Assembly: GCA_022072125.1 (NCBI GenBank)
Contig: JAJVIH010000020.1
Coordinates: 62,001 to 126,000, forward strand
Direction of reading: 5' to 3'
Length of the DNA: 64,000 nucleotides
DNA from: Myxococcota bacterium
Lineage (GTDB): Bacteria; Myxococcota; JAJVIH01
This document shows, piece by piece, positions 18,797 through 44,832 of the stretch. Under the pieces are notes generated by a model. It was not told the origin of the DNA. It saw nothing but the letters and a program-made list of their open reading frames with translations, and did no database searches. The position numbers and the translations under genes are program-made. How positions within the stretch are numbered: position 1 is the stretch's first letter; every line of letters starts with the position of its first letter.

Positions 18797-18870
18797 GTGG
18801 TGTTCTGCCGCCATTGTTTCCGGCATGACTTCAAATGGCGGCCGGATTCGCCGGCCGCGGCGGAGGAATG

Positions 18871-19611
18871 ATGTCCCACCAGCCACGAACAGCGGTGATC
18901 ACCGGCGCTAGCGCAGGCATTGGCGAGGCCACGGCGCGCGCGCTGGCGCGTGAAGGATTCCATGTCGTGCTTGGCGCCCGCCGCGTGGATCGGATTGAGG
19001 CCCTTGCGGCGGAGTTGGGCGGCCAGGCGTTCTCCCTTGACGTCACATCCAAAGACAGCGTGGCCGCGCTGGCCGCCTGCATTCCGCAGGCTTCTGTCCT
19101 GGTCAACAACGCCGGTCTGGCCCTGGGTCTGGACCCGCTCGAAAGCGGGAGCGACAGCGACTGGGAAACCGTCATCGAAACCAACGTGCTGGGGCTGATG
19201 CGCGTCACCCGCGCGCTGCTGCCCGCGCTGCAACGGGCGCCGCACTCCCATATCGTCAACCTGGGATCGGTGGCGGGTTGGGAATCCTACAAGGGCGGAA
19301 GCGCCTACTGCGCCTCGAAACATGCCGTACGTTCCTTGTCGCGGACCCTGCGGCTGGAACTGCTGGGACGGCCCATCCGGGTGACCGAGGTGTCGCCGGG
19401 ACTGGTGAAGACGGAGTTCAGCCTGGTGCGTTTCCATGGCGACGCAGCCCGGGCTGAAACCCCCTACGCGGGATTGCAGCCGCTGACCGCGGACGACATC
19501 GCCGAATGCGTCCGGTGGGCGGTGATGTTGCCGCCCCACGTCAACATTGATGAGATAATCGTCAAGCCGGTGGCGCAGGCTTCCGCCACTGTCGTCCACC
19601 GGGCGGGGTGA
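18871..19611 (+). CDS. short-chain dehydrogenase/reductase (YdfG-like)
   Basis: NAD(P)-dependent oxidoreductase of 246 residues. Visible are the Rossmann glycine motif (VITGASAGIGEATA), NNAG (LVNNAGLALG), the catalytic Ser (IVNLGSVAGWESY) and the YxxxK pair (AYCASKHAV). An Arg after the second strand (LGARRVDRIEAL) favours NADP. The second of two adjacent ATG codons is preferred because GGAGGA lies 4-5 nt before it. The best-fitting subgroup is YdfG-like 3-hydroxy-acid dehydrogenase; the substrate is uncertain. Confidence 0.9.
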   Translation: MSHQPRTAVITGASAGIGEATARALAREGFHVVLGARRVDRIEALAAELGGQAFSLDVTSKDSVAALAACIPQASVLVNNAGLALGLDPLESGSDSDWETVIETNVLGLMRVTRALLPALQRAPHSHIVNLGSVAGWESYKGGSAYCASKHAVRSLSRTLRLELLGRPIRVTEVSPGLVKTEFSLVRFHGDAARAETPYAGLQPLTADDIAECVRWAVMLPPHVNIDEIIVKPVAQASATVVHRAG

Positions 19612-19657: not shown

Positions 19658-22414
19658 TCAAACGCCGTCCACGTCGAAGTCGTTCTTCTTCTTTTTGCCG
19701 GGAAGCCATCCAAACAGCATGGCCATCAGTTTGGCGAAGAACCCCTGTTTGGCGGGCTCGACCGCCAGCGGCGCCGAAGCGCCGTTGGAAGGCGGCCGGC
19801 TCCCCAGCGACGAATCCACCTGAATGGAATCGCTGGGCCCGGCGGTCAGGGGAACGCTGTTCCATGCCTGCTGCTTTTTCTCGGAGACCAGCCAGTCGTT
19901 CAGGGAAACCCCGGCGATGGTGTGGTCGCGACGTGGGACATTCTGTCCCACATTATCCTCGCCCATGGAAATCGGGCTGTTGGCGGCGAGAAAATCTCCC
20001 GAACTGCGCGGCGCCGCCTGCCCGGGCGGATACCCCGGAGGTTGCCCATATTGCGGCGGCATCCCGGGCGGCATGCCCTGAACGGGCGGCATTCCGGGGG
20101 GATAACCCTGCGGAGGATAACCTGGGTGCATGCCCTGTGGAGGATATCCAGGCGGAAAACCCGGCTGCTGGGGGTAACCTTGAGGCGGAAAGCCCTGCGG
20201 CGGATATCCGGGAGGCGGCTGGCCAGGGAATCCTCCGGCCTGCATGGGGGGCTGTTGCGGCATCCCCTGCGGCATGCCCATGGGCGGAATCATTCCCGGC
20301 GGAAACGCCTGGGGAGGAGGCTGCCCCGGCATGGCAGGGGCGGGAGCAGGTGAAGGCGGAACCTGCTGGGCCGCTTGCGCCGCCGCCTGGGCGCCGCCCT
20401 TTTTCACCTCGTCCGGCACTTCCTTCATGTTCAGGATGGCCTTCATCTCGCGGCCGGAGATGCCATCCCGCGCAGTGACGGTCAGAATGCCTTCGTTGTT
20501 GATGGCGAAGCTGATCTGGATTTTGTTCTGGCCCTTGGGCGCGGCCGTCAGCCCGTTGAACTTCAGCGTGCCCATGTAATCGTTGGCGGCGAATTGCTCC
20601 GCCTCACCCTGCAGGATCACCAGTTTGAGTTCCTGCTGGTTATCGTGGGCCGTGCTGATGGTGAATTTGCGCTCGCAGGGCAAGGGCGTGTTGGCGGGGA
20701 TGATGCGCGCGTAGCCGCCGCCGGGCAACGCCAGGCCAATCGAGATGGGCAGCACGTCAATCAGCAACACGCCCGCGCTGGATCGTGTGATGGAGTGAGC
20801 AAGCAGCCCCGCTCCCAGCGCCACGACTTCGTCGGGATGGACGCTGTGGTTGGGCTTCTTCTGGAAATGCTCTTCGATTTTTCTCCAGACCAGGGGATAG
20901 CGGCTCTGACCGCCGACGAGGATGATCTCGTCGAGCTCGGTTTTCTTGATGTTCTTGGCGGCCAGCACCGCGTCGCAAACCGCGAGGGTTTTGTCCACCA
21001 AATCCTCGGTCAGTTCGTGCAGTTTGTCCCGGGTCAGGGTCAGCTTGAGATCCAGCGGCTTGCCTTCGTGCATGTGGATGAAAGGCACATGCACTTCCAC
21101 CTGCGGCTGCTCGGACAGGCTGATTTTGGCCGCCTCCGCCGCGAATTTGACGCGCTGCTGAACGATGGTGTCCGAAGGCAAATCAATGCCGTGCTGGCTG
21201 CGGAACACCATGTTGAAATAGTCCACGATGCGGATATCGAAGTCTATGCCGCCCAGGAAGTTGTTGCCGCCCGTGGACACCACTTCGTACACGTCGTTGG
21301 CGATATGCAGCACCGATGCGTCGAAGGTGCCGCCGCCGAGGTCGTATATCAGGACGCGCTGGTCCAGGCTGCGGCCAAAGCCATAGGCGAGAGCGGCGGC
21401 CGTCGGCTCGTTGACGATGCGCTCGACATGGAAGGCCGCCACGCGCCCCGCCAGACGGACCGCGTTGCGCTGGTTATCATTGTAATAGGCGGGAACGGTG
21501 ATGACGCAGCGGTTGATCTCCTGACCGTAGTACTCCTGGGCGATCTCCTTGATCTCCGACAGGATGAGGGAAGACACCTTGGGCAGGGACATCACCTGGG
21601 CGCCGATTTTGACCGCGACGCTGCCATCGTGGGCTTCCAGTATCTCGTAGGTGAAATAATTCTTCAGGCTCTGGACAATGGGCGAATTGTATTTGCGGCC
21701 TATCAGGCGCTTCGCCCCGTAGACCGTGTTCTTGGGATTGAGCAGGAACTGGCTTTTGGCCACGTGTCCCACCAGCAGCTTGCCACGATCATTGATCGCC
21801 ACCATCGAGGGAATGGTGTTGTAGCCACGCCGGGATGGAATGACGATCGGCTTGCCGTTCTCCACGACGGCCGCGCAGGAATTGGTGGTGCCCAGGTCAA
21901 TGCCAATGACCGGACCGGTCGGCGAGGTCAACTCGGGAAGCTCTTCACCCCCATCGGCGGACAGGCTGCCGCTGCTCACGTAGTCAGCGCTTGCCTTCGG
22001 GCGGGCCACCGGCTGTGCGGCCGGCGCGGGCGCCGGAACGGCCGGAACGGATGGTTGCGGAGCCATGGCGGGCATCGCCGCTTGCGAGGGCCGGGCCCCC
22101 GCCTGGGTCTTGTAATACAAGACCCGGTTCAGAATTTCCGTATTGGCCTGATCCAGGTTGACGAAACGGACCACGCATCCACTAACCGATTTGGGATTGG
22201 AAGGATCCGCGGTTTTGACTTCGACCACGGCGCCGGTTCCTTCAAAAACCGGCGCGCCGGAGGCCAAAAAACAGGAAAACTTAACCTCGGTGCCCACGGG
22301 AGGGGGCTGAGGCGTCCGGAAGAACATGCCCGCTTTCTGGATAAACGGGTGGTACTTCTGGATGAATTCATCCGCCGTGTTGTACGGCAATTTGACGCGG
22401 ACATGTGGCTGCAA
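19658..22414 (-). CDS. PilZ-like domain fused to an Hsp70 (DnaK-type) chaperone with a PGYPPQ-rich tail
   Basis: 918 residues. About 1-105 resembles the PilZ-type domain found in Myxococcota (VRVKLPYNTADEFI, PPPVGTEVKFSCFLASG). Its c-di-GMP motif looks degenerate: the DxSxxG position reads FIQKAG. A Pro/Ala linker leads to an Hsp70 ATPase domain from about 168 (VIGIDLGTTNSCAAVV, YDLGGGTFDASVL, VNEPTAAALAYGFG) and a beta substrate-binding domain to about 660. The alpha-helical lid is missing and is replaced by about 140 residues of Pro/Gly/Met/Gln with repeated GYPPQ units. A final segment (GFFAKLMAMLFGWLPGKKKK) could dock on membrane. The TTG start at 22414 is forced by an in-frame TAG four codons upstream, with GAGGG as ribosome site. 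Confidence 0.88.
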   Translation of the reverse strand: MQPHVRVKLPYNTADEFIQKYHPFIQKAGMFFRTPQPPPVGTEVKFSCFLASGAPVFEGTGAVVEVKTADPSNPKSVSGCVVRFVNLDQANTEILNRVLYYKTQAGARPSQAAMPAMAPQPSVPAVPAPAPAAQPVARPKASADYVSSGSLSADGGEELPELTSPTGPVIGIDLGTTNSCAAVVENGKPIVIPSRRGYNTIPSMVAINDRGKLLVGHVAKSQFLLNPKNTVYGAKRLIGRKYNSPIVQSLKNYFTYEILEAHDGSVAVKIGAQVMSLPKVSSLILSEIKEIAQEYYGQEINRCVITVPAYYNDNQRNAVRLAGRVAAFHVERIVNEPTAAALAYGFGRSLDQRVLIYDLGGGTFDASVLHIANDVYEVVSTGGNNFLGGIDFDIRIVDYFNMVFRSQHGIDLPSDTIVQQRVKFAAEAAKISLSEQPQVEVHVPFIHMHEGKPLDLKLTLTRDKLHELTEDLVDKTLAVCDAVLAAKNIKKTELDEIILVGGQSRYPLVWRKIEEHFQKKPNHSVHPDEVVALGAGLLAHSITRSSAGVLLIDVLPISIGLALPGGGYARIIPANTPLPCERKFTISTAHDNQQELKLVILQGEAEQFAANDYMGTLKFNGLTAAPKGQNKIQISFAINNEGILTVTARDGISGREMKAILNMKEVPDEVKKGGAQAAAQAAQQVPPSPAPAPAMPGQPPPQAFPPGMIPPMGMPQGMPQQPPMQAGGFPGQPPPGYPPQGFPPQGYPQQPGFPPGYPPQGMHPGYPPQGYPPGMPPVQGMPPGMPPQYGQPPGYPPGQAAPRSSGDFLAANSPISMGEDNVGQNVPRRDHTIAGVSLNDWLVSEKKQQAWNSVPLTAGPSDSIQVDSSLGSRPPSNGASAPLAVEPAKQGFFAKLMAMLFGWLPGKKKKNDFDVDGV
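20030..20330 (-). repeat. in-frame low-complexity repeat coding GYPPQ/GMPP units
   Basis: Purely coding repetition inside the Hsp70-fusion gene. Units such as GYPPQGFPPQGYPQQP are imperfect in both DNA and protein, so expansion by slippage is possible. Such Pro/Gly/Gln segments resemble disordered tails that drive self-association. Confidence 0.75.
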
Positions 22415-22482
22415 AGCCTACCCTCGCGTTGTGGCTAATCCCCCTCGCCGGCGGACGCACCAGGCAGAAGACCTCCAATTGA

Positions 22483-22522
22483 ACTGGGGCACACAATAGA
22501 CTCCCAACCCCAGTGAAGTCAA
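22483..22522 (-). promoter_or_regulatory. promoter of the PilZ-Hsp70 gene with flanking inverted repeat
   Basis: Leftward TTGACT (22517-22522), 18 bp, TATTGT (22493-22498). Start of transcription is expected near 22486, about 70 nt before the TTG start codon. A perfect 7-bp inverted repeat, ACTGGGG (22483-22489) and CCCCAGT (22508-22514), brackets the -10 region with arm centres 25 bp apart and could be an operator. The remainder of the 22415-22745 divergent gap holds no other clear signal, and no convincing promoter for the rightward SGNH gene. Confidence 0.55.
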
Positions 22523-22745
22523 ACGAACAGAATTTAGAAACCTGTTTAATTCCTTCCAGAAGGGTTGAAACCAGGCTTCTTCGCAGGTTCATGGAAATGT
22601 CATGGAATCCGGATTCTGTTTGTCCGGGCGAGGTTCAACCCCATTGCAATCATTTTCATCCGGACTCGCGGATTCGAGCACGGGTCCATCCCTTCCTGCC
22701 GGCCTTGCACCACGGAGCATTTGCCCGGAAAACATCCGCCGGTTA

Positions 22746-23858
22746 ATGAAGAGATCATTCCTGGTTCCGGTGATGAACGCACTCTCCTGGCGGCGGAAAA
22801 TAGGCTTTGCCTCTGCCCTGATTCTGGCCGGTCTCTGCGCCGCGCTGGCGGGGGCGGAACTGTTTTGCCGTCTGTTTGCATCACCCCAACATGCGGGAAT
22901 CGCCCAATGGCGGGCAGGCGGGGAAAGCCCGTATCTGGTGAATCCGGGGGGGAAGCCCATGCTCCGCTATAAAGCCAATGTGGTTGTCTCCGGACCAGGC
23001 GGAAGCACCATCCGGGCCACCAATTCGCTGGGGTTCCGCGACCGCGAGGCCGCCTGGGAAAAATCACCGGAGACCTGGCGGGTGTTGCTGCTGGGGGACT
23101 CGGTGACCGCGGCAGACCCGCCATTCGATCTGCCGGTGGAGCATACCTGGGAAAACCGGCTGGAGGACGCCGTCAACGCCCGCAATCCCGTGCGGCGCGT
23201 GGAGATTGTCAACCTGGCCGTGGGCAGCTACGACGCCGCCCTGGAGGCGCAATTGCTGGAAAGCGTGGCCGCCAGGCTGCGGCCGGACGCGGTCTGGATT
23301 GCGTTCGTGACCAATGATATCCATCAGCCTCCTCCGCGCATTTGGGTTTCTGGAGACCAGGTGATGGTTCTGGATGTTTTTCAGGATGACCCGGGCCGCC
23401 GCGAAGCCTCCTTCTGGCTGGACAATCTGCTGATGAACCATTCGCAACTCTACCGCCAGCTTCGCATTGGCGAGATCGCACGGGAAACGGCTGCTTCAAC
23501 CCCGGCGCGGGAACAAAAACTCCGCGACGCCGCCTGGAAGGCCTACCAGCGCATCCTTGAGTTGAGCCGCGGCGCGGGCGCCCAGGTGGGCGCCATTCTG
23601 CTGGCGGAACTGAACTCCCGGGCGTCCTATCGCCCAGGCGTCATCGAAAACGTCCACCAGGTCTTTCTGTCCTGGATGGCCCAACTCGGCGTCCCGGTGA
23701 TTGACACCACGGGCCTGCTGGATCACGCGCCGCCGGAATCCCTGCGTATCTTCCCGGACGATGTCTCCCATCTCAACGCGCGCGGACACCTGGAACTGGC
23801 GAAAGCGCTGGCGCCGCTGATGTGCGGGCCGCCATGGTCGCCGGAGACCTGCCCATGA
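22746..23858 (+). CDS. membrane-anchored SGNH/GDSL-type hydrolase
   Basis: About 370 residues from the ATG at 22746 (an ATG at 22773 is equally possible; neither has a good ribosome site). An N-terminal hydrophobic helix (IGFASALILAGLCAALAGAELF) anchors or exports it. SGNH blocks are visible: block I GDSVTAADPP with the nucleophile Ser, block II Gly in NLAVGSYD, block III FVTND, and block V DDVSHLNARGHLELA with Asp and His. Proteins of this kind add or remove O-acetyl groups on surface sugars. It overlaps the next gene by 4 bp (ATGA). Confidence 0.82.
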   Translation: MKRSFLVPVMNALSWRRKIGFASALILAGLCAALAGAELFCRLFASPQHAGIAQWRAGGESPYLVNPGGKPMLRYKANVVVSGPGGSTIRATNSLGFRDREAAWEKSPETWRVLLLGDSVTAADPPFDLPVEHTWENRLEDAVNARNPVRRVEIVNLAVGSYDAALEAQLLESVAARLRPDAVWIAFVTNDIHQPPPRIWVSGDQVMVLDVFQDDPGRREASFWLDNLLMNHSQLYRQLRIGEIARETAASTPAREQKLRDAAWKAYQRILELSRGAGAQVGAILLAELNSRASYRPGVIENVHQVFLSWMAQLGVPVIDTTGLLDHAPPESLRIFPDDVSHLNARGHLELAKALAPLMCGPPWSPETCP

Positions 23859-34705: not shown

Positions 34706-37700
34706 TCAGGGTGAGCGATCGCCGGTGGCCGCGAAGTTGCCCATGCGGTACAGGCCGTCGTCGGTGGCGATCCACACCTCGCGGCGGCCGGTGGCCGGAT
34801 CATGCCACACCGCCACGTCGTTGATTTTGGTCACGCTGGAGCCAATGCCGAAAATGCTGGCGCGGTAGTTGAAGAAGCCCGCGTTCTCGTTCTCCCAGAC
34901 GATTTGATCGTATGGGGCCTTGAAGCGTCCCAGGCTGTTGTCGGCCGTGAACCAGACATCCTTCTTCGTGGAATCAACCGGATTGTTGTTGGGCGTGGTG
35001 GATGGATCCACGTACATCGCCGTCAACATCGGGTGGCGCGGGCCGGTGGTCAGACCGTCCGTTCCGCTGGAAGAATAGATGGTTCTCTTCGCGGAACTGC
35101 TGGCGTCGCTCGAGGAAGTGAACGTCGTGAAGTCATTGATCTTCACCACGCCTTGGTTCTGGGCGGTCAACCAGAGGTTGTTGCTGGCGCCGCGGCCCAC
35201 CTCGATCACGTTGTCGTTTCCACCAAAGAAATCGAACGCCACGGTCGAGGTGTCGCAGTTGGTGCGGTTGTTGTAGTTGGGCACGCGGCGCAGACCGTTG
35301 GCGTCGTTGCCGAGAGCCGCCCACATCACGCCGCCCGCAAACTCAAACCCGTTGAGGGTGGGATCGTCTGCGGTTCCGTCGGTTCCCTCCAGGCATTTGA
35401 AGGATGGCGAGGTGATCGCCAGGCTGGTCAGGTTGGCCTGGGTGTAGCCGTCGCGCGTGCCCACGTACAGGTTGGAGCCATCCGAGCCGAAGGCGGTGAT
35501 GTCGTCGGCGACACTGCTCAGGGCCGCTTCGACGCCATTCTCGCCCTGCACCGCCGCATTCGACGGATTCAGGCTGAACAGCAGCGCCGCCGGTCCCGTG
35601 GGTGCGTCCTCGCCGAAATACACCAGGCCGCTGGTGGCGAACACCTTGCCCAGACCGCCATTGGCCAGCGGCGGATTGGTGGACGTGGTGATCAGGTTGT
35701 CGTTGGTGTTCCAGTGGTACCAGTACATGTCCTTGCAGGTGTTGTCGGCGCCGCTGCAGCCGTCCTTGACCATGAACACATCGGCGGCGTTGGTTCCGCT
35801 GGTCGAGGGAACCACATCCACCGACCGGATATTCCCCGGTGCGCTCGCGATCTTCGAGAACCCGTTGATGGTGACGGTGATGTTCTGGGCAGGGCTGGTC
35901 AGAGGCGGACTGGTGGTCTTGGCCTGCAGGCGGACGGTCAGGTTTTCGGTGGCGCCGCAGTCTTTCGTCTGCTGGCAGGCGACGAAGATCGCCTCTCCGG
36001 TAGCGCCGGTCACCTGCAGGGTGGTTCCGCGGCTGGCGTAGGTCTTGGGATCAATGAATTCCTGCGCCTTGCCCGAAGTGACCGTCCATTCCAGGTTGGG
36101 AACGGTGGCGGTGCAGCCGGGGCCGTAGGAGTCCTTGCCAATCACCTTCACCGTATCGCCGATCATCACCGTCTGGCTGGAGGGCGAAGCCACCGCCACC
36201 AGGGCGTTGTTCGGTCCGACAAAGAAGTTGCCCGTGACCACGCTGGCCGTGCAGGAGTCATTGCCCTGGCCATGGAATTTGACCTGCTGGGCGCCCGTCG
36301 GCTGACCAGAGGCGACCCGCACGGTGAAGTTGGCGTTGCCGCTGGAGTTGACCGTGACCTGACGGCGCGCGCCGCCGCCCGTGAACAGGCCGGAGGTGGT
36401 GCAACCATCCACTTGATAGCCGCTGTTGGGGGCCAGCGTACCGTCAACCGGGTTGTCGAATTGGTCGCGCGCCTGCACGGTGACGCTCAGGCTTTCGGTG
36501 TTGTCATTCAGCAGGCATTCGACGCCGGAGCGGGTGCTGGGCGCGTCCAGCGTGGTGATCTGGAATTTGCTGGTGTCGGCGGCGGCCGGGCGCACTTCGA
36601 TGACATTGCTGTCCACCGTGCTGTTGGGAATCGAAGGCGTGATGGTCGCGCGCAGGTACATGCGGCCCTTCGGCGAGGTGTTCTGCACCACCTGACGCTC
36701 CGAGATGGTGAAGTCCACGAAGGAGCCGCCGGCGGTGCCGCCGCTGGTGGTTCCATCAAGCACGCCCGTGCCGGTCATCGCCGCATCGGTGCCGGCGTTG
36801 AAGGCCTGAATGCTGATATTCGAACTGGCCATGTTCTTCGGATTGCCGAATTGATCCTGCACCTCGATGCGAACCGGGTTGCCGCCCATCTTCAGATTGG
36901 CGGAAGCCACCGCGCTGGCGATGACGGGCGTATCCACCGTGGTGGTCGCGCCGCGCTTGAAGACAATCTTGTTGGCGGCGGCGGCGTTGACCACGATATT
37001 GGTTTTACTGCCCGTGATGGAGCCGGTCACCGAATCCGTCGCGGACAACGTGCAGTTGGGCGGTGAAGCCACCTTGGGCGTGAACCTTCCGGAGAAGGAC
37101 TTGATGCCCAGATCGCCAGACGCGATGCTGCCGCTGCCTGGCGTGTCTCCGGTCAGTTTGCAGGTCCAGTCGAAATTGACCGTGCCGGTATAACCAGTGG
37201 CGCGGTTGCCATTCTGATCCAGGGCCTCGACGACAATGTCGTAGGAGGTTCCCGCCGTCAGCGCGCCCGCCTGGGTGTCCACCGACAGGCTGACCGCGGC
37301 GCCCGGAGTGATGTTGATGGAGTGATCGCTGGTGGAAGTCAGCGTCGGGCTGCCGGTGTTTTCCTCGCCGCGGATCTGGATGGTCTCCACCTTCGTGTGC
37401 TGGAAGGCGTTGCCGGTCTTGGTGAAGGTCGCCCGGCCGTTGACCGTATTCGCGCTCTGGGAGGTGAAGGTGAAATTGCCCGCCGTGCCGCTGCGCAATA
37501 CGATTTTGATCGAACGTCCATTGTCGTTGGACACCCAGCGATCGCTGGAGTCGCGCACTTCCACCACGAAGTCATTCCACTTGTCGGTGGAAGGAACCGA
37601 GGTGGGCGGGAGGGTCGAGAACGCCAGCTTGGCGGCGGCGCCGAATCCGACATTCAGGTTGGTGTTGGCCTTCACCGCCGGAGCGTTTTCAGAAGCCACG

Positions 37701-40700
37701 TTGACCTGCACTGTCTCCTGCACCGTGCCGGCGGTCACCGTGTAGCTGAAATCGCCATTGGTCAGCGGAGCCTGACGGTTGGCGAGCCCGGGGTTGGAAT
37801 CCGCCGGCGCGGTGATCCGTGTTCCGTTGGCCTGGCTCAACTCATCCGTGCCATTGGCGTTGAGGCCAACGGTGACATTCGACAAATAATCGGCGGAGTT
37901 GGTGACCTTGTTGTTGTACAGGTCGAAGGCCGAACCCGAAATCGTCGAAGTCGAGGTGTTGTCCGCTGGGATGGACTGCAGGTTCGCCTGAATGGTGTAC
38001 GAAGACGGCTCCGCGGGCTTGAGAGTGATGTTGGAGGTTGAACTGATCGCCGTGGAGGTGATCGTTCCGGTCAGCACATAGTCATGGGTGGCGTCCGTCA
38101 GGTTTTTGCGTTGCGAAACCCTGGCGAAGGTCGCCTTGCCGCCCACCGACACATCGCCATTGACCGTCGCGGTCGCCACGGAAGAAGCAGAGGAGACGCC
38201 GGCCAGGAAGAATTTGTTGTCGTCCCCGGCGGAAGTCAGGGTGACGCTGTCGCCATGAATCAGGCGGGGCGCGCCCTGGGCGTCGGTCGGGGTGACCACC
38301 ACATCCACTTCCTCGCCCGCTTTCCAGGTGGTTTTCGCTGGCGTCACCGTGACACCGGCGACCGCGCCGGCTTCCACCGTCACCGTAGCGCTGTTTCCAG
38401 AGGAAGAGGAAGCGGGCTGGGCCTGCACGGCGGTCACGCTGATGCGTCCCGTGCCCTGGTTCTGGCCATTGGCGCGCACATTGAAGCTGAGCATGCCCCC
38501 GTTCACCGCCACCTGATGGCCCGCGGTTCCCGCGTCGGCGTCGGCTTCCACCACGTCCATATTGTTCAATGGACCAAAGGTATCCGTGATGAATCCGATG
38601 GTGAACAAGGTTCCGTTGGCGAGGGTGTTGCCGAAGCGGTCCTTCAGCGTATCGGTGGTGACGGAAGTGGTGCGGGCGGCGGTGTTGCCCGTCCAGCCGC
38701 CGGAATTGGGCCGCAGGGTGGCCGTGCCGCGGGTCACCGTGATGGTCTGGTTGCCGGGCTTGGAGGGCGTTACCGTGATGGTCTGGGTCTTGTTGATGGA
38801 ACCCGAAACCGCGCGCAGGGTGAAGTTCTCCGCGATGATGTAGTAGCGGCCCGCGAAAGTGACGGAACCCGCGGGTTGCGCTGAAGTTCCGCTGAAGGGC
38901 GTTCCCGCGGTTCCCGGCTCCGGTCCGGTGCGCAGGGTGCTGGTGCCGCCGGTGGCGTCAAGGTCAACCGGGTCGGCTTCCAGTTCGCGCGGGGCGTCAT
39001 ACTGATCGCGGGCGACCACTTTGACATCAATATTTTCTCCCGCTTCCCAGGTGGTTTTGTTGGGCGTGAACTGGAAGGCCAGGTTGTTCAGGCCGTAGGC
39101 GCCCACCTTCACCGCGCTGGCCGCCTGGACACGGGTTCCGTCATTCAACGGATTGCCGCTTCCATCCACGGACTCGGTATTGATGTACTGGCAGCCCTGG
39201 GTGGCCCCACCCTGCAACTTGATGGTGATCTTGCCATCCACATCGGTGGTTTTGGTGGTGACCTTGTCGTTTTCCGGATCGTCATCGGAATGGATGCGGG
39301 AATTGGAGGAGCGCAGCGTGGTGAAGTTGTCGCATACGGTATGACCGTTCACGATCTTGGTGTAACTCGCCGACAGCGGATTATCCGCCAGGGTCACCAG
39401 CACGCGGGTGCCGGTGGCGGCGATATTCTCGAAGCGGTCGCGCAGCGCCGTGGAGGTGAAGGTCTTGATATGCTCATTGGCGGTGGTGGCCGCGCCAAAA
39501 TCGTTGTGGATGATCATGGCAGGAGCGCCGCCGCCGCCGGGGTTGTCCGTGGTGTTGAACTTCACATCGTGAGTATCGGACGGCGCCGCCGGATCCACGG
39601 TTATCAGGGCGGTCTGAGAGTTCACCGCTCCCACCGTGGAGCGCAGGTTGAATGTACCGCGCTTCCGGTAGTTGATATTGTTGAAGGTTGCGTCGCCGGT
39701 TCCCAGGGTGGGATTTCCCGTGATGGTGGATGGCGTCGAGCCGGTCCCCTGCCACAATCCCTGCTGGAAGGTGGTGGTCTTGACCAGGGTGGGGTTGGCG
39801 GCGTCCAAGGTAATGGTGTCGGTGTCCATCAACCGCTTGAGACCATACTGATCACGGGGGGTCACGGTGATGGTGAAAAGCTGGCCCGCCGTCCAGGTGG
39901 TGGTGTTGGGGTTGAGACCGATATCGAAGCTGACAATCGGACCTCCCGATACCTTGAAATTCTGGCCCAGCCTGCTGGACAGATTGGGATCCTTCCATTC
40001 GAGTTGGCGCTCGCAATCGTTGTCGCGGGTGGAATCGTTGACCGCCAAATCCGGCAGTTCCACCGCGCTCACGAAGAAGCGGCCAAAGCCCTGGGTCGCG
40101 CCGGATTTCAGCACGAACGAAACCTGGCTGTTGGCGTCGGTCTTGAGTTGGACGCCGCTGATCGTGCTATCCGCATCCGTCACTCCTTCAAAATCGGAGC
40201 CGGTCGCCGGGAAGGGCTGGCGGACCGCATCCAGCGTGTCGGTGGAGGAATAACTGACCGTCACCAGCACGTTGGCGCCAACCAGGTTGCCCTTGATGTC
40301 CTTCAATTGCGATGAAGTGAGGGTAAAACGTTTTTCCGCATTGGTGGGACCCGCCACATCCGGATGGGCGCGCACATCCACGCCCGCCACGCTGGTGCGC
40401 AGCGGTTGGGTATTGGCCGTGCAGTTGGATGGCGTGCTGAAGGTTCCCGCGGCGGGCGGCCCGGGGTTCACGGTGGTGATGGCGATGGTGGTCGCGGGCA
40501 GGCTCCCGCCCGAGATCGAAAATTCCAGCGGCTTGGTGCGTTCCAGATAACGGAAGCCGGTCCAGGTGGCCTGTCCGGAAGAGACGGTTTTGGTGGACGG
40601 CAGGGTCAGTTCCGGCGGCCCTGGCAGGAAATCGCCGTTGGCGCCCTTGCCCGCCGAGAAGGACAATTGGAGTTGGGTGCTGTTGTTGGTGGTGACGATA

Positions 40701-43700
40701 TTGCCAAAGGAATCCTTCAATTGCGCCGTGACATTGAACCGCTGACCCACCCGGATGGTCTGGTTGGCGACCAGGACGACGCTGGCGGCGGCCCCCGGCA
40801 GCACGGTGATCACCTTGGAACCCGTGCCCACCCCTCCCGGACCAGTGACATTGATGGTCAGGCTGCCCGCCTGCTGGCCCACGTCAATTTCAAAACTGAT
40901 CGATCCGTTCGCCGGGGTGACCTGATGGCCCCCCGCCGCGGCGTCCGCGTCCGAGGAGACAAAGGTTCCCGCTGTCAACGTCGCGGTGAGATTGGGCTTG
41001 GCGTTCACCGGGTTGCCCTGCGCATCCTTGATGTCGGTGCAGGTGATGGTGACGCGCGTGTTGACCGTCGGCGTATCGCTGGAGGAGGTGCAGTTGAAGG
41101 TTCCGGCCGGGTTGCCCGGGATGAGGGTGATGCCCACCGATCCCGTGGCGGTGGAGCCCTCGCGGCGGCCGCGCAGGGTGACGGTCGCGTTGCCAGGGGT
41201 CTTGGAGGATTTGTAGGTCACGCAGATTTTCTGCGCGCTGGCCTTGACCTCCACCACGCCAGTGGTGGCGGGATCGTCATCCGGCGATGACAGGGTTCCG
41301 CCGCCCGTCAGGGAGGCCTCGAATACCTCTCCGTTGGGAACCAGGTTGCCCTGGGCGTCCTTGAGATTTTCGGAACAGACCTGCGAGGTGCTGACCTCGT
41401 CGGCGACAATTTCGCTTGGCGTCGCGGTGACCGTGAGCGTACCAGCCGGCGGACCGGAGATGAGATCAAAATTGAGCGATCCGGTCGCCGTCCCCGGGGC
41501 CGCGGCGGCAGCCGTGAAGTTGGCTGTTCCGGTTTGGTTGGGCGCCCGCACTTCCACCGTAACCACGCCGTTGTTGACGGCGACCTGAACGCCGGGTTCG
41601 GGTCCCACGTCCACGGCGTTGATATTCAGGCTTCCCGTGGAGGTCAGGGTGATCAGGGTTCCATCGCGCACAAGCTGGTTGGCGGAGTCGCGCACCGGCC
41701 CGATGTCCACGGTGGTGGAATCCACGCCATTGGCTACCAGGGTTGTCTTCCCCGCTTTCAGCGGAATCGAACCCACGGCGGGCCCAAGGGTGATCACATC
41801 GCGGCAGACTTCCTCGGAACTGTTGGCGCCGTCGTAAACCGTCAGGCAGAAGCTGAGTTGTCCGCCTTCATTGGGAGCGATGAACTGGGCGTGCGCCGAA
41901 TTGACGCCCTGCAGGTTCACGTTGCCGGTGCGCACGCGCCAGACATAGGTGATCTGCCCGCCCTGCGGCTGGAAGCTGCCAGATCCATCCAGTTCCACCA
42001 CGTCGCCAAAGCTGGGGGTGGCGCCGGGGCGCGAACGGTTGTTGACCGCGTTGATAATGGCCACCGGCGGCGTGGCGGGAAACGGCGATCCGACTTCGAC
42101 GGAGACCAGCGCGGGGGCGCTGTTGGCCTTGCCATCGTTCACCACCAGCGAAAACACCATGCGGTCTGAACTGCCCGGGGCCGTGAATCGCGGCGTGGCC
42201 GAACGCGGATCCGTCAGGGGGGCGAAAATGCCCTGGACCTGCACCCAGCGGTAATTGATGTTGTCGCCATCCGGGTCGCGGGAACCCGTGCCGTTCAGGG
42301 TCACCACCTGGTTGACGCCAATCTTGATGGGATCTCCCGCGTTGGCCACTGGCGGCCGGTTGGTGACCTCGTTGGCGACGATGATCTTCACCTTGGATTC
42401 GGAGGAAGACAGGATGCCATCGTTGACGATCAGGCCGAACTCCATGGTTTGCGGTTTGTCCGGAGCGACGAAAATCGGGTTGACGGTGCGCGGTCCGCTG
42501 ATCTTGACGACATCACCGCTGATCTGACGCCAGTTGTAGAAAAGGGTGTCCCCATCATTGTCAAAAGAACCCGCGCCATAGAGGGTGACCTGGGCGCCCG
42601 GCGCCACTGTCTGCTGAACCCCCGAGTTGGCCTCGGGCGGAAGATTGCCGCGCTTGACGCGCACGGAAACGAAATCGGGCGAACTGTTGCTCTTTCCATC
42701 GCTGACGATGAGCGCGAACTCATAAAACCCATCCGTGTTGAACGATGGCGTCGTAATGGAGACGGATTCGCGGTTCTCCAGAACAATCACTTCGGGCCCT
42801 GCAACCTGGCTCCAAGTGTAGGTCAGCCTGTCCCGATCGGGATCAAAGCTCCGCGAGCCGCTCAGGGTGACGCTCTGCCCGACGTTGATGACGCGGTCTT
42901 CGCCGGCGCTGGCTACCGGAGAACGGTTGGTTTCATCGGGCCGGGCGTTGACGGTCACCGTGGCGGGGTTGCTGGAATCCAGGCCATCGGAAACGGTCAC
43001 GGCGAACTGGTATTCGCCGGAAGAGGCCGCCCTGAACCAGGGGAAGGCGCTGTTCTGGTTGTTCAGGGACACCGTGGTTCCACTCACCTGCTTCCACGTG
43101 TGGAAGATGCGATCATTTTCCGGGTCGGTGGACGCGGAAGAATTCATGATCACGATGGTTCCCGTACGCACGGACATGGGAGTCATCACCTTGGCCAGGG
43201 GGGGGCGATTTTCCTTCTTCACAATGGTGATGCGAACAATGTCTTCCTTGCTCGACACTTCACCGTCAAACACCGTCAGGGAGAAATCCACCGAAGTGTC
43301 GCGGGGCACGTCGGGCGCGGTGAACGTGGGATTGGCCGCCGTGTTGGAGTTGAGCCGGATGCTTTCCGGTCCCGACATTTTCACCCAGCGGTAGGTCAAC
43401 GGCTTTCCTTCCGGGTCGAACGAAGCGGCGCCATCCAACTGAACAAGCTGATTGGGCTTCACGCGCTGATCGGGACCGGCGTTGGCGACCGGCGGCAGGT
43501 TCTTGAATTCGCGGACCACAAAAATGGTCACCCGGTCCGGCTTGGAAGGAATGCCATCCGAATTGGTGACAACCAGATCGAAATTCAGCGTCACTTCACG
43601 CTCGGGAGCGGTGAACCGCGCCACCGCCTCGGCCCGTCCGGTGATGGTCACACCCACCGGATCCGAAGGATCCTGACGCCAGTCATAACGCAATTGCAGG

Positions 43701-44542
43701 TTATTGGGATCACTGGACTGGGAGCCGTCGAGGATCACCACCTGCGAGAACCCCACTGTCTGGTCCGGACCCGCATTGGCGACGCCAGGGACCCTCGCCC
43801 GCTGAACCAGGAACTGGTAGGTTTCGGAGGCCCGCCCGCCGCGTCCATCCTCGACCACCAATTCAATTTCCATCCGGGTTTCCGTGGCGGGAGCGGTGAA
43901 CACCAGGATGGGCGCCCGTGAATCCTCAATTGTCGCCTTGGGACCGCCATCCTTCTGAACCCACTGATACGTCAGTTGGTCGCCGTCGGGGTCCGTGGCC
44001 TGGGGATCCAGTTCAACCCGTTGCTGGAAATTGACCACCCGGGAGCTGTTCTTGGTTGCAATGACAGGATTGTTGTTGGGCGGCCCAACATCGGGAGTCA
44101 CATCCGGAGTATCGGCGTCCGTCCCGGTAGCGGCGTCGGCGTCCACGCCTCCGTCGCTGGGAGGCGGACGTTCGGCGTCCAGGACCCGGATTTCAACAAT
44201 ATCCGGATTGGAGTCGCTGACGCCGTTGTTCACCACCAGGGCGACCAGGTGAACGCCCGGCTGGGAAGGAATAAAACTGGTCGAGGCTTTGGATTCCGGA
44301 TTGGGCAGGGCGGAATTCTGGGGCTGGCGGATAAAGGACCATGTATAGGTCAACTGGCGGTTCTTCGAGTCGCTGCTGCCGCTGCCATCCAGGGTGACAG
44401 GATCGCCTACTCTGCCAATTTTGTTCTCACCCGCAATCGCGATGGGGAGTTCTTCCGCATCTATGGTAGGCGGAACACAACCAGCCCCCCACATGGAAAG
44501 AACAAGAATACCCGTTACGGCAAGAGAAAGACGCTTGCTCAT
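34706..44542 (-). CDS. giant multi-domain surface lipoprotein (PKD and bacterial Ig-like repeats)
   Basis: 3,278 residues from the ATG at 44542, with signal MSKRLSLAVTGILVLSMWGAGC (lipobox GAGC). Residues about 30-915 hold nine PKD-like modules, each starting like PPVANAGPDQ and containing YxW; a Asp/Ala/Thr/Pro linker (VDADAATGTDADTPDVTPDV) splits the first two. About 916-2890 is a long array of Big_1/invasin-like Ig modules with spacers such as DQYG/DQFGNP. The last about 390 residues (from GNIRSVDVVPS) look like a beta-propeller ending VWIATDDGLYRMGN. It is presumably displayed at the surface as an adhesin or recognition rod. A hairpin terminator precedes the ATG and another follows the stop. 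Confidence 0.88.
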   Translation of the reverse strand: MSKRLSLAVTGILVLSMWGAGCVPPTIDAEELPIAIAGENKIGRVGDPVTLDGSGSSDSKNRQLTYTWSFIRQPQNSALPNPESKASTSFIPSQPGVHLVALVVNNGVSDSNPDIVEIRVLDAERPPPSDGGVDADAATGTDADTPDVTPDVGPPNNNPVIATKNSSRVVNFQQRVELDPQATDPDGDQLTYQWVQKDGGPKATIEDSRAPILVFTAPATETRMEIELVVEDGRGGRASETYQFLVQRARVPGVANAGPDQTVGFSQVVILDGSQSSDPNNLQLRYDWRQDPSDPVGVTITGRAEAVARFTAPEREVTLNFDLVVTNSDGIPSKPDRVTIFVVREFKNLPPVANAGPDQRVKPNQLVQLDGAASFDPEGKPLTYRWVKMSGPESIRLNSNTAANPTFTAPDVPRDTSVDFSLTVFDGEVSSKEDIVRITIVKKENRPPLAKVMTPMSVRTGTIVIMNSSASTDPENDRIFHTWKQVSGTTVSLNNQNSAFPWFRAASSGEYQFAVTVSDGLDSSNPATVTVNARPDETNRSPVASAGEDRVINVGQSVTLSGSRSFDPDRDRLTYTWSQVAGPEVIVLENRESVSITTPSFNTDGFYEFALIVSDGKSNSSPDFVSVRVKRGNLPPEANSGVQQTVAPGAQVTLYGAGSFDNDGDTLFYNWRQISGDVVKISGPRTVNPIFVAPDKPQTMEFGLIVNDGILSSSESKVKIIVANEVTNRPPVANAGDPIKIGVNQVVTLNGTGSRDPDGDNINYRWVQVQGIFAPLTDPRSATPRFTAPGSSDRMVFSLVVNDGKANSAPALVSVEVGSPFPATPPVAIINAVNNRSRPGATPSFGDVVELDGSGSFQPQGGQITYVWRVRTGNVNLQGVNSAHAQFIAPNEGGQLSFCLTVYDGANSSEEVCRDVITLGPAVGSIPLKAGKTTLVANGVDSTTVDIGPVRDSANQLVRDGTLITLTSTGSLNINAVDVGPEPGVQVAVNNGVVTVEVRAPNQTGTANFTAAAAAPGTATGSLNFDLISGPPAGTLTVTATPSEIVADEVSTSQVCSENLKDAQGNLVPNGEVFEASLTGGGTLSSPDDDPATTGVVEVKASAQKICVTYKSSKTPGNATVTLRGRREGSTATGSVGITLIPGNPAGTFNCTSSSDTPTVNTRVTITCTDIKDAQGNPVNAKPNLTATLTAGTFVSSDADAAAGGHQVTPANGSISFEIDVGQQAGSLTINVTGPGGVGTGSKVITVLPGAAASVVLVANQTIRVGQRFNVTAQLKDSFGNIVTTNNSTQLQLSFSAGKGANGDFLPGPPELTLPSTKTVSSGQATWTGFRYLERTKPLEFSISGGSLPATTIAITTVNPGPPAAGTFSTPSNCTANTQPLRTSVAGVDVRAHPDVAGPTNAEKRFTLTSSQLKDIKGNLVGANVLVTVSYSSTDTLDAVRQPFPATGSDFEGVTDADSTISGVQLKTDANSQVSFVLKSGATQGFGRFFVSAVELPDLAVNDSTRDNDCERQLEWKDPNLSSRLGQNFKVSGGPIVSFDIGLNPNTTTWTAGQLFTITVTPRDQYGLKRLMDTDTITLDAANPTLVKTTTFQQGLWQGTGSTPSTITGNPTLGTGDATFNNINYRKRGTFNLRSTVGAVNSQTALITVDPAAPSDTHDVKFNTTDNPGGGGAPAMIIHNDFGAATTANEHIKTFTSTALRDRFENIAATGTRVLVTLADNPLSASYTKIVNGHTVCDNFTTLRSSNSRIHSDDDPENDKVTTKTTDVDGKITIKLQGGATQGCQYINTESVDGSGNPLNDGTRVQAASAVKVGAYGLNNLAFQFTPNKTTWEAGENIDVKVVARDQYDAPRELEADPVDLDATGGTSTLRTGPEPGTAGTPFSGTSAQPAGSVTFAGRYYIIAENFTLRAVSGSINKTQTITVTPSKPGNQTITVTRGTATLRPNSGGWTGNTAARTTSVTTDTLKDRFGNTLANGTLFTIGFITDTFGPLNNMDVVEADADAGTAGHQVAVNGGMLSFNVRANGQNQGTGRISVTAVQAQPASSSSGNSATVTVEAGAVAGVTVTPAKTTWKAGEEVDVVVTPTDAQGAPRLIHGDSVTLTSAGDDNKFFLAGVSSASSVATATVNGDVSVGGKATFARVSQRKNLTDATHDYVLTGTITSTAISSTSNITLKPAEPSSYTIQANLQSIPADNTSTSTISGSAFDLYNNKVTNSADYLSNVTVGLNANGTDELSQANGTRITAPADSNPGLANRQAPLTNGDFSYTVTAGTVQETVQVNVASENAPAVKANTNLNVGFGAAAKLAFSTLPPTSVPSTDKWNDFVVEVRDSSDRWVSNDNGRSIKIVLRSGTAGNFTFTSQSANTVNGRATFTKTGNAFQHTKVETIQIRGEENTGSPTLTSTSDHSINITPGAAVSLSVDTQAGALTAGTSYDIVVEALDQNGNRATGYTGTVNFDWTCKLTGDTPGSGSIASGDLGIKSFSGRFTPKVASPPNCTLSATDSVTGSITGSKTNIVVNAAAANKIVFKRGATTTVDTPVIASAVASANLKMGGNPVRIEVQDQFGNPKNMASSNISIQAFNAGTDAAMTGTGVLDGTTSGGTAGGSFVDFTISERQVVQNTSPKGRMYLRATITPSIPNSTVDSNVIEVRPAAADTSKFQITTLDAPSTRSGVECLLNDNTESLSVTVQARDQFDNPVDGTLAPNSGYQVDGCTTSGLFTGGGARRQVTVNSSGNANFTVRVASGQPTGAQQVKFHGQGNDSCTASVVTGNFFVGPNNALVAVASPSSQTVMIGDTVKVIGKDSYGPGCTATVPNLEWTVTSGKAQEFIDPKTYASRGTTLQVTGATGEAIFVACQQTKDCGATENLTVRLQAKTTSPPLTSPAQNITVTINGFSKIASAPGNIRSVDVVPSTSGTNAADVFMVKDGCSGADNTCKDMYWYHWNTNDNLITTSTNPPLANGGLGKVFATSGLVYFGEDAPTGPAALLFSLNPSNAAVQGENGVEAALSSVADDITAFGSDGSNLYVGTRDGYTQANLTSLAITSPSFKCLEGTDGTADDPTLNGFEFAGGVMWAALGNDANGLRRVPNYNNRTNCDTSTVAFDFFGGNDNVIEVGRGASNNLWLTAQNQGVVKINDFTTFTSSSDASSSAKRTIYSSSGTDGLTTGPRHPMLTAMYVDPSTTPNNNPVDSTKKDVWFTADNSLGRFKAPYDQIVWENENAGFFNYRASIFGIGSSVTKINDVAVWHDPATGRREVWIATDDGLYRMGNFAATGDRSP

Positions 44543-44556
44543 TGGATCACCCGGTG

Positions 44557-44594
44557 AAAAACCTCCCTTCCCTCCATTAGGAGGAAAGAGAGGT
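44557..44594 (-). promoter_or_regulatory. terminator-like hairpin in the leader of the giant gene (candidate attenuator)
   Basis: Leftward, ACCTCTCTTTCCTCC (44594-44580) pairs with GGAGGGAAGGGAGGT (44575-44561) over 15 bp with two G-U pairs, and T-rich sequence follows (44561-44557). This is an intrinsic terminator ending 14 nt before the ATG. A -10-like TACAAT (44612-44617) would start transcription just ahead of it; no good -35 is seen. A GGAGG also lies within the stem. The rest of the 44543-44832 divergent gap shows no other feature. Confidence 0.65.
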
Positions 44595-44832
44595 CCCGCT
44601 TCTGCTTCCAAATTGTACACCCAATGCAATCCTACCGGTGGCTCCATGGCCGGTCAAATTAAGGCGGCCAGATTGGGCGCGTATCCGGATGCTTTATCCC
44701 GGGATTCCATGTTTCGTCCGCCCCTTTCCCTGGCCCCGCCGGGGAATACGGATGCATGACCCGTCCTTGACACCCTTCATGCAGGGGCGATACTTGACCG
44801 GATACTGGCCCAGACTGACGCATGGGGCGCTG

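Follow-up and report, generated by a model that had tools for sequence, protein, structure and literature searches.

The stretch of DNA analysed here, referred to as the window, comprises 64,000 nucleotides of a Myxococcota bacterium (GCA_022072125.1, contig JAJVIH010000020.1, positions 62,001 to 126,000). On its reverse strand, at 22414-19658, it encodes a 918-aa protein in which a PilZ-type domain is followed by a lidless Hsp70 ATPase and beta-sandwich domain, a P/G/Q/Y tail and a basic amphipathic C-terminus. Translation is read from a TTG codon; an in-frame TAG lies immediately before it, so the start is not farther upstream. A Shine-Dalgarno-like GAGGG (22421..22425, minus strand) sits 6 bases 5′ of the TTG. 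A consensus scan upstream of the gene returned one sigma70-like candidate promoter (TTGACT-18-TATTGT; 22493..22522, minus strand) against 0.1 expected, a match that is no evidence of function. The gene is solitary: both neighbours lie in the opposite orientation, a short-chain dehydrogenase gene converging on its 3′ side (18835-19611, plus strand) and a GDSL-hydrolase gene diverging from its 5′ side (22602-23858, plus strand). An antisense ORF of 687 aa (20375-22438, plus strand) overlaps most of the Hsp70 gene and most likely reflects nothing more than the codon pattern of high-GC DNA. Elsewhere in the window, a 3313-aa ORF containing numerous PKD and bacterial Ig-like domains (34706-44647, minus strand) probably encodes a surface protein.

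The N-terminal domain (aa 4-99; 22118..22405, minus strand) matches the NCBIfam model TIGR02266, a PilZ-related domain, with E=1.2e-13 and 51 bits, under the curated cut-off of 68.7; the Pfam PilZ model gave no match in the protein. For an AlphaFold2 model of aa 1-111 (pLDDT 70), the top structural matches are PilZ structures (7lkm, 3dsg and 4fou; E 2-6e-4), and the closest folds include the XC1028-type PilZ, described as having trivial c-di-GMP-binding activity. PilZ proteins that bind c-di-GMP carry RxxxR and [DN]xSxxG. In an alignment with 41 other PilZ-Hsp70 fusions, neither half of this motif survives in the window protein: RxxxR is gone, with VRVKL... in its place, and [DN]xSxxG is degraded to FIQKAG (FxQxxG). 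The preliminary description had proposed a PilZ-like domain that has lost its c-di-GMP contact residues, and both points are borne out by these matches and this alignment. An A/P-rich linker follows (aa 100-166; 21917..22117, minus strand), disordered by its composition and by a pLDDT below 50 for aa 101-156.

The Hsp70 core begins with a nucleotide-binding domain (aa 167-548; 20771..21916, minus strand), assigned by PF00012 and by alignment with E. coli DnaK, in which the ATPase motifs are intact. The interdomain linker VLLIDVLP (aa 549-556; 20747..20770, minus strand) aligns with DnaK VLLLDVTP and leads into the substrate-binding beta domain (aa 557-663; 20426..20746, minus strand), after which the alpha-helical lid of a canonical DnaK is absent. 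The PF00012 match (aa 169-663, E=1e-156) covers model positions 1-498 of 599 only, the alignment with E. coli DnaK ends near residue 521, where the lid begins, and the full AlphaFold2 model contains a confident Hsp70 core, no lid, one short helix at 668-683 and disorder from 685 to 891. The protein also falls under both curated cut-offs of the DnaK equivalog models (559.5 bits vs 648; 544.3 vs 822.55). The suggestion that both the lid and an EEVD-type end had been replaced therefore stands for the lid. The missing EEVD is uninformative, because EEVD is the mark of eukaryotic cytosolic Hsp70. A literature search for a natural lidless or membrane-helix DnaK was without result.

Beyond the core lies a P/G/Q/Y/M-rich low-complexity tail of PGYPPQ type (about aa 685-806; 19997..20362, minus strand), recognised by its composition and disordered in the model. 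The 142-residue tail holds 48 P, 23 G, 19 Q, 11 M and 7 Y, and is degenerate, with no tandem DNA repeat. The protein ends in an amphipathic basic helix, QGFFAKLMAMLFGWLPGKKKK (aa 890-910; 19685..19747, minus strand), a candidate for MinD-like membrane targeting. Over aa 891-910 the C-terminus reads GFFAKLMAMLFGW-LPGKKKK, a motif that can be written GFFAKLMAMLFGWLPGKKKK, and AlphaFold2 places a weak helix at aa 892-901 (pLDDT about 54).

Relatives were sought in 58 genomes of the same phylum with the N-terminal domain as query, and the loci were then read. The same domain order, for which a search in Myxococcota had been suggested, is present in at least 24 of the 58 sampled genomes, and the Hsp70 of these PilZ fusions is always cut off after the beta domain. 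Two unusual PilZ-DnaK chaperones of Myxococcus xanthus, CsdK1 (MXAN_3778) and CsdK2 (MXAN_6605), have been studied genetically (Seidel et al. 2023, PMC10313047). When CdbA is depleted or the temperature is 37 C, they act redundantly to increase the amount of the PilZ protein CdbS; they stabilise CdbS during heat stress, and through this action contribute to chromosome disorganisation and cell death (PMC10313047). Contact with CdbS is made by the DnaK part of CsdK2 and does not need the PilZ domain; neither the lid nor a C-terminal helix is discussed in that paper (PMC10313047). The window protein shares with this family the N-terminal PilZ domain, the Hsp70 ATPase, linker and substrate-binding domains, and the descent of its Hsp70 core. 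It is a member of the described Myxococcota PilZ-DnaK (CsdK) family, and the locus is real and correctly located. The idea that the architecture is special to this locus is not supported; because the fusion is widespread and the genetics of CsdK1 and CsdK2 are published, the architecture had largely been described already.

The fusions fall into several classes. One, of ~780 aa, was recovered throughout Myxococcaceae and Archangiaceae, M. xanthus included (named scan). Its M. xanthus gene is followed by an NRPS gene, and we equate it with the CsdK1 class because this neighbour matches the surroundings of MXAN_3778, the CsdK1 gene, which is followed by an NRPS gene (PMC7910581). A ~1150-aa class fits CsdK2, whose constructs extend to residue 1146 (PMC10313047); relatives of this type retain the full c-di-GMP motif in the alignment. 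A third class, in Myxococcaceae (L026, L034, L024, L025, L042 and L192), comprises proteins of 797-2056 aa with a divergent Hsp70, joined to the PilZ domain by a disordered A/P/S/E-rich linker of 170-1376 aa. M. xanthus (AM003) has at least the Hsp70 half of such a protein, its contig breaking within the linker. No published account of this class was found, and these very long PilZ-Hsp70s are apparently undescribed. The window genome has no close relatives among the sampled genomes; it contains five clear Hsp70s, three TIGR02266 domains, and eight GGDEF and eight J-domain matches.

Several other observations were made in these genomes. Two CsdK2-class proteins (L041 and L044) carry a repeat array of GREPxSSxGRPxAPGL type in the linker between PilZ and Hsp70. 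Two Myxococcus proteins (L151 and L152) are lidless Hsp70s of about 556 aa that have no PilZ domain, are 58% identical to the window ATPase domain, and end in a helix of the same kind as the PilZ-Hsp70s, RGLFSSIKSIFRRG. The window genome encodes a further Hsp70 of 556 aa (L076; G000:C1:149066-150961) in which the lid is nearly absent; it ends in DLPAAT, adjoins a small J-domain ORF and has Myxococcus relatives with similar ends (L132-L134). Finally, an assembly deposited under the name Comamonas sp. KCTC 72670 holds a CsdK1-class gene (L082) 81% identical to the Myxococcus query and is probably mislabelled or contaminated.

Trees of the Hsp70 core and of the PilZ domain bear on how these proteins arose. 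A first core tree, from which the third class was left out, set all tested PilZ fusions and their lidless kin apart from other Hsp70s (100/99) and joined the tested fusions to one lidless non-PilZ group (98/93). A single clade of fusions was not rejected with the third class left out (p=0.48) or included (p=0.52). The window protein is a deep branch in the first core tree, neither core tree settles its exact position, and the third class as sister of its core was not rejected in the tree that includes that class (p=0.45). In the PilZ tree, its PilZ domain falls together with the third class (97/96). Direct orthology with CsdK1 was considered and rejected: the window core resembles that of CsdK1 most in sequence, but placement with the CsdK1 class is rejected by the PilZ tree (p=0.024). 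The simplest reading is that PilZ and Hsp70 fused once and the fusions then diverged, the window protein lying on the branch in which c-di-GMP binding was lost; PilZ domains may also have been swapped later.

In most PilZ-Hsp70 classes the terminus is a short basic motif of amphipathic character: the CsdK1 class has GFMGWLKGLFGRA, the CsdK2 class FWGFVKKALGRK, the third class GLLSGLKKLFGRR and family f4 GLLGKLFGRKK. The membrane tag of E. coli MinD is KGFLKRLFGG (PMC5471200), with which relatives' ends such as KKGFLGWLKGLFGG or GLFAFFKRLFGG can be compared. C-termini were scored by hydrophobic moment and charge in preference to a gapless profile of the CsdK1-class motif; the profile found the third-class motif, under-scored CsdK2-type and GLLGKLFGRKK ends, and was out of register on the window protein. 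Background C-termini were drawn from sampled genome stretches of about 780 kb in total plus the window, with a simple GC3-based gene caller. By this score 31 of 42 fusions pass, against 8-11% of background C-termini, and the window protein reaches 2.18, a value attained by 0.8% of the background; it has the short basic amphipathic C-terminal helix of a MinD-type anchor. The score is conservative but imperfect, since it rejects the textbook MinD tag (low mean hydrophobicity), and alone it is not specific, since some other Hsp70s with alpha-helical C-termini, some of them lidded, also pass (L131, L147-L149). Several fusions have no obvious C-terminal helix (L028, L036, L039, L053, L060 and L068).

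Selection on the last codons is stronger evidence for the helix than the amphipathicity test. Among 18 CsdK1-class proteins, identity is 76% over the last 12 residues and 33-15% in the blocks before them. In 11 close CsdK1-class genes, which do not include the window gene, pN/pS is 0.23 for the last 13 codons and 0.67 for the tail just before them, compared with 0.22 for the ATPase domain and 0.24 for the beta substrate domain. The special C-terminal end noticed at the outset is conserved across the PilZ-Hsp70 family and fits a chaperone kept at one place. This conserved helix end seems not to have been described before, and nothing on the localisation of CsdK1, CsdK2 or other family members was found in the literature.

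On balance, we favour a reading, drawn from sequence, in which a tether holds the window protein, a lidless Hsp70, at the inner membrane and its PilZ domain serves as a protein adaptor. The Hsp70 engine of ATPase, linker and substrate beta domain is intact and would be expected to go through the usual ATP cycle with J-proteins and GrpE. Judging from known lidless DnaK, the loss of the lid should make client binding and release quick, so that the protein may act as a stabiliser more than as a refolding machine. A disordered tether would stand in the lid's place, its short basic amphipathic MinD-type helix docking the chaperone on the inner membrane, as sequence, conservation and selection suggest. 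The PilZ domain, which has kept its fold without the c-di-GMP motif, may select a partner or location through protein-protein contacts. By analogy with CsdK1 and CsdK2, the protein might raise the levels of selected client proteins under stress.

The main rival to membrane docking is that the C-terminal motif acts as a tethered pseudo-substrate, folding into the protein's own open groove or a neighbour's and gating access by clients. DnaK-binding motifs consist of a hydrophobic core with flanking Lys/Arg, which is what these ends offer; the motif sits on a flexible tether in lidless Hsp70s, and it also occurs in the lidless Hsp70s that have no PilZ domain (L151/L152). However, its location at the very C-terminus, its amphipathic spacing, the Gly at its start and ends such as GFLGWLKGLFGG resemble MinD, and it is wholly missing in other lidless Hsp70s (L132-L134, L138-L140), so that we regard self-binding as unlikely. 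Attention might instead be placed on the tail as the main functional novelty, phase-separating or joining a condensate and concentrating the chaperone there. Its top 100-aa stretch is 91% P/G/Q/Y/M, far above other sampled proteins of the genome (the runner-up among 329 predicted proteins has 51%), and long disordered segments are frequent in the PilZ-Hsp70 family, but at a different position. A PGYPPQ tail after the Hsp70 was found in no sampled relative, however, and the tail has only seven Tyr and few charges. In CsdK1-class relatives, pN/pS indicates nearly unconstrained evolution of the region before the C-terminal helix, which makes a spacer role the default for the tail and a condensate role improbable.

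A PilZ domain that senses c-di-GMP and switches the chaperone is the least credible of these alternatives. The genome has its eight GGDEF matches and the motif is complete in CsdK2-type relatives (PMC10313047), but the R38A motif mutation in CsdK2 left client interaction unaffected (PMC10313047). For the window protein itself such regulation was rejected, both halves of the motif being missing.

Extended from membrane docking of the window protein to the whole PilZ-DnaK family, this reading becomes tentative, at somewhat less than an even chance: the family would consist of natural lidless Hsp70s that exchanged the lid for a tethered MinD-like anchor and work as chaperones at the membrane surface, with the window protein and the third class as a separate, c-di-GMP-blind branch with an adaptor PilZ. 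To the known CsdK family the analysis adds a lidless core found family-wide, a MinD-like end under selection, and the third class. In textbooks Hsp70s are soluble chaperones whose lid looks essential, and a natural phylum-wide lidless family would offer a ready system for asking what the lid is for. A conserved membrane-anchor-like end would, in addition, give a location to the CsdK/CdbS pathway of regulated cell death.

The window protein has the ATPase motifs, the linker and the beta substrate domain in common with canonical DnaK, both that of E. coli and that of the same genome (L074), but lacks the alpha-helical lid and has gained a PilZ domain and a C-terminal tether. With E. coli MinD (PMC5471200), PilZ-Hsp70s share a C-terminal helix that is short, basic and amphipathic and contains Gly and Phe-Leu/Leu-Phe; MinD is a cell-division ATPase, whereas the PilZ-Hsp70s are chaperones whose membrane binding is predicted. 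The Xanthomonas PilZ/XC1028 adaptors provide the nearest solved folds to the window PilZ domain and likewise have no functional c-di-GMP motif, but they are stand-alone pilus-assembly proteins with no Hsp70 fusion. The third class resembles the window protein in its PilZ domain, the lack of RxxxR and a C-terminal helix; it differs in its very long linker and in its Hsp70 ATPase domain, where identity is only about 35%. Closest are CsdK1 and CsdK2 (PMC10313047), which have the same N-terminal PilZ-type domain, disordered linker, lidless Hsp70 ATPase and beta domain and short amphipathic basic C-terminal helix, with ATPase domains 59% (CsdK1 class) and about 51% (CsdK2 class) identical to that of the window protein. 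CsdK1 has lost only the first half of the c-di-GMP motif and CsdK2 neither, whereas the window protein has lost both; it further departs from them in its P/G/Q/Y tail, its longer C-terminal helix with KKKK, and a PilZ domain that groups with the third class.
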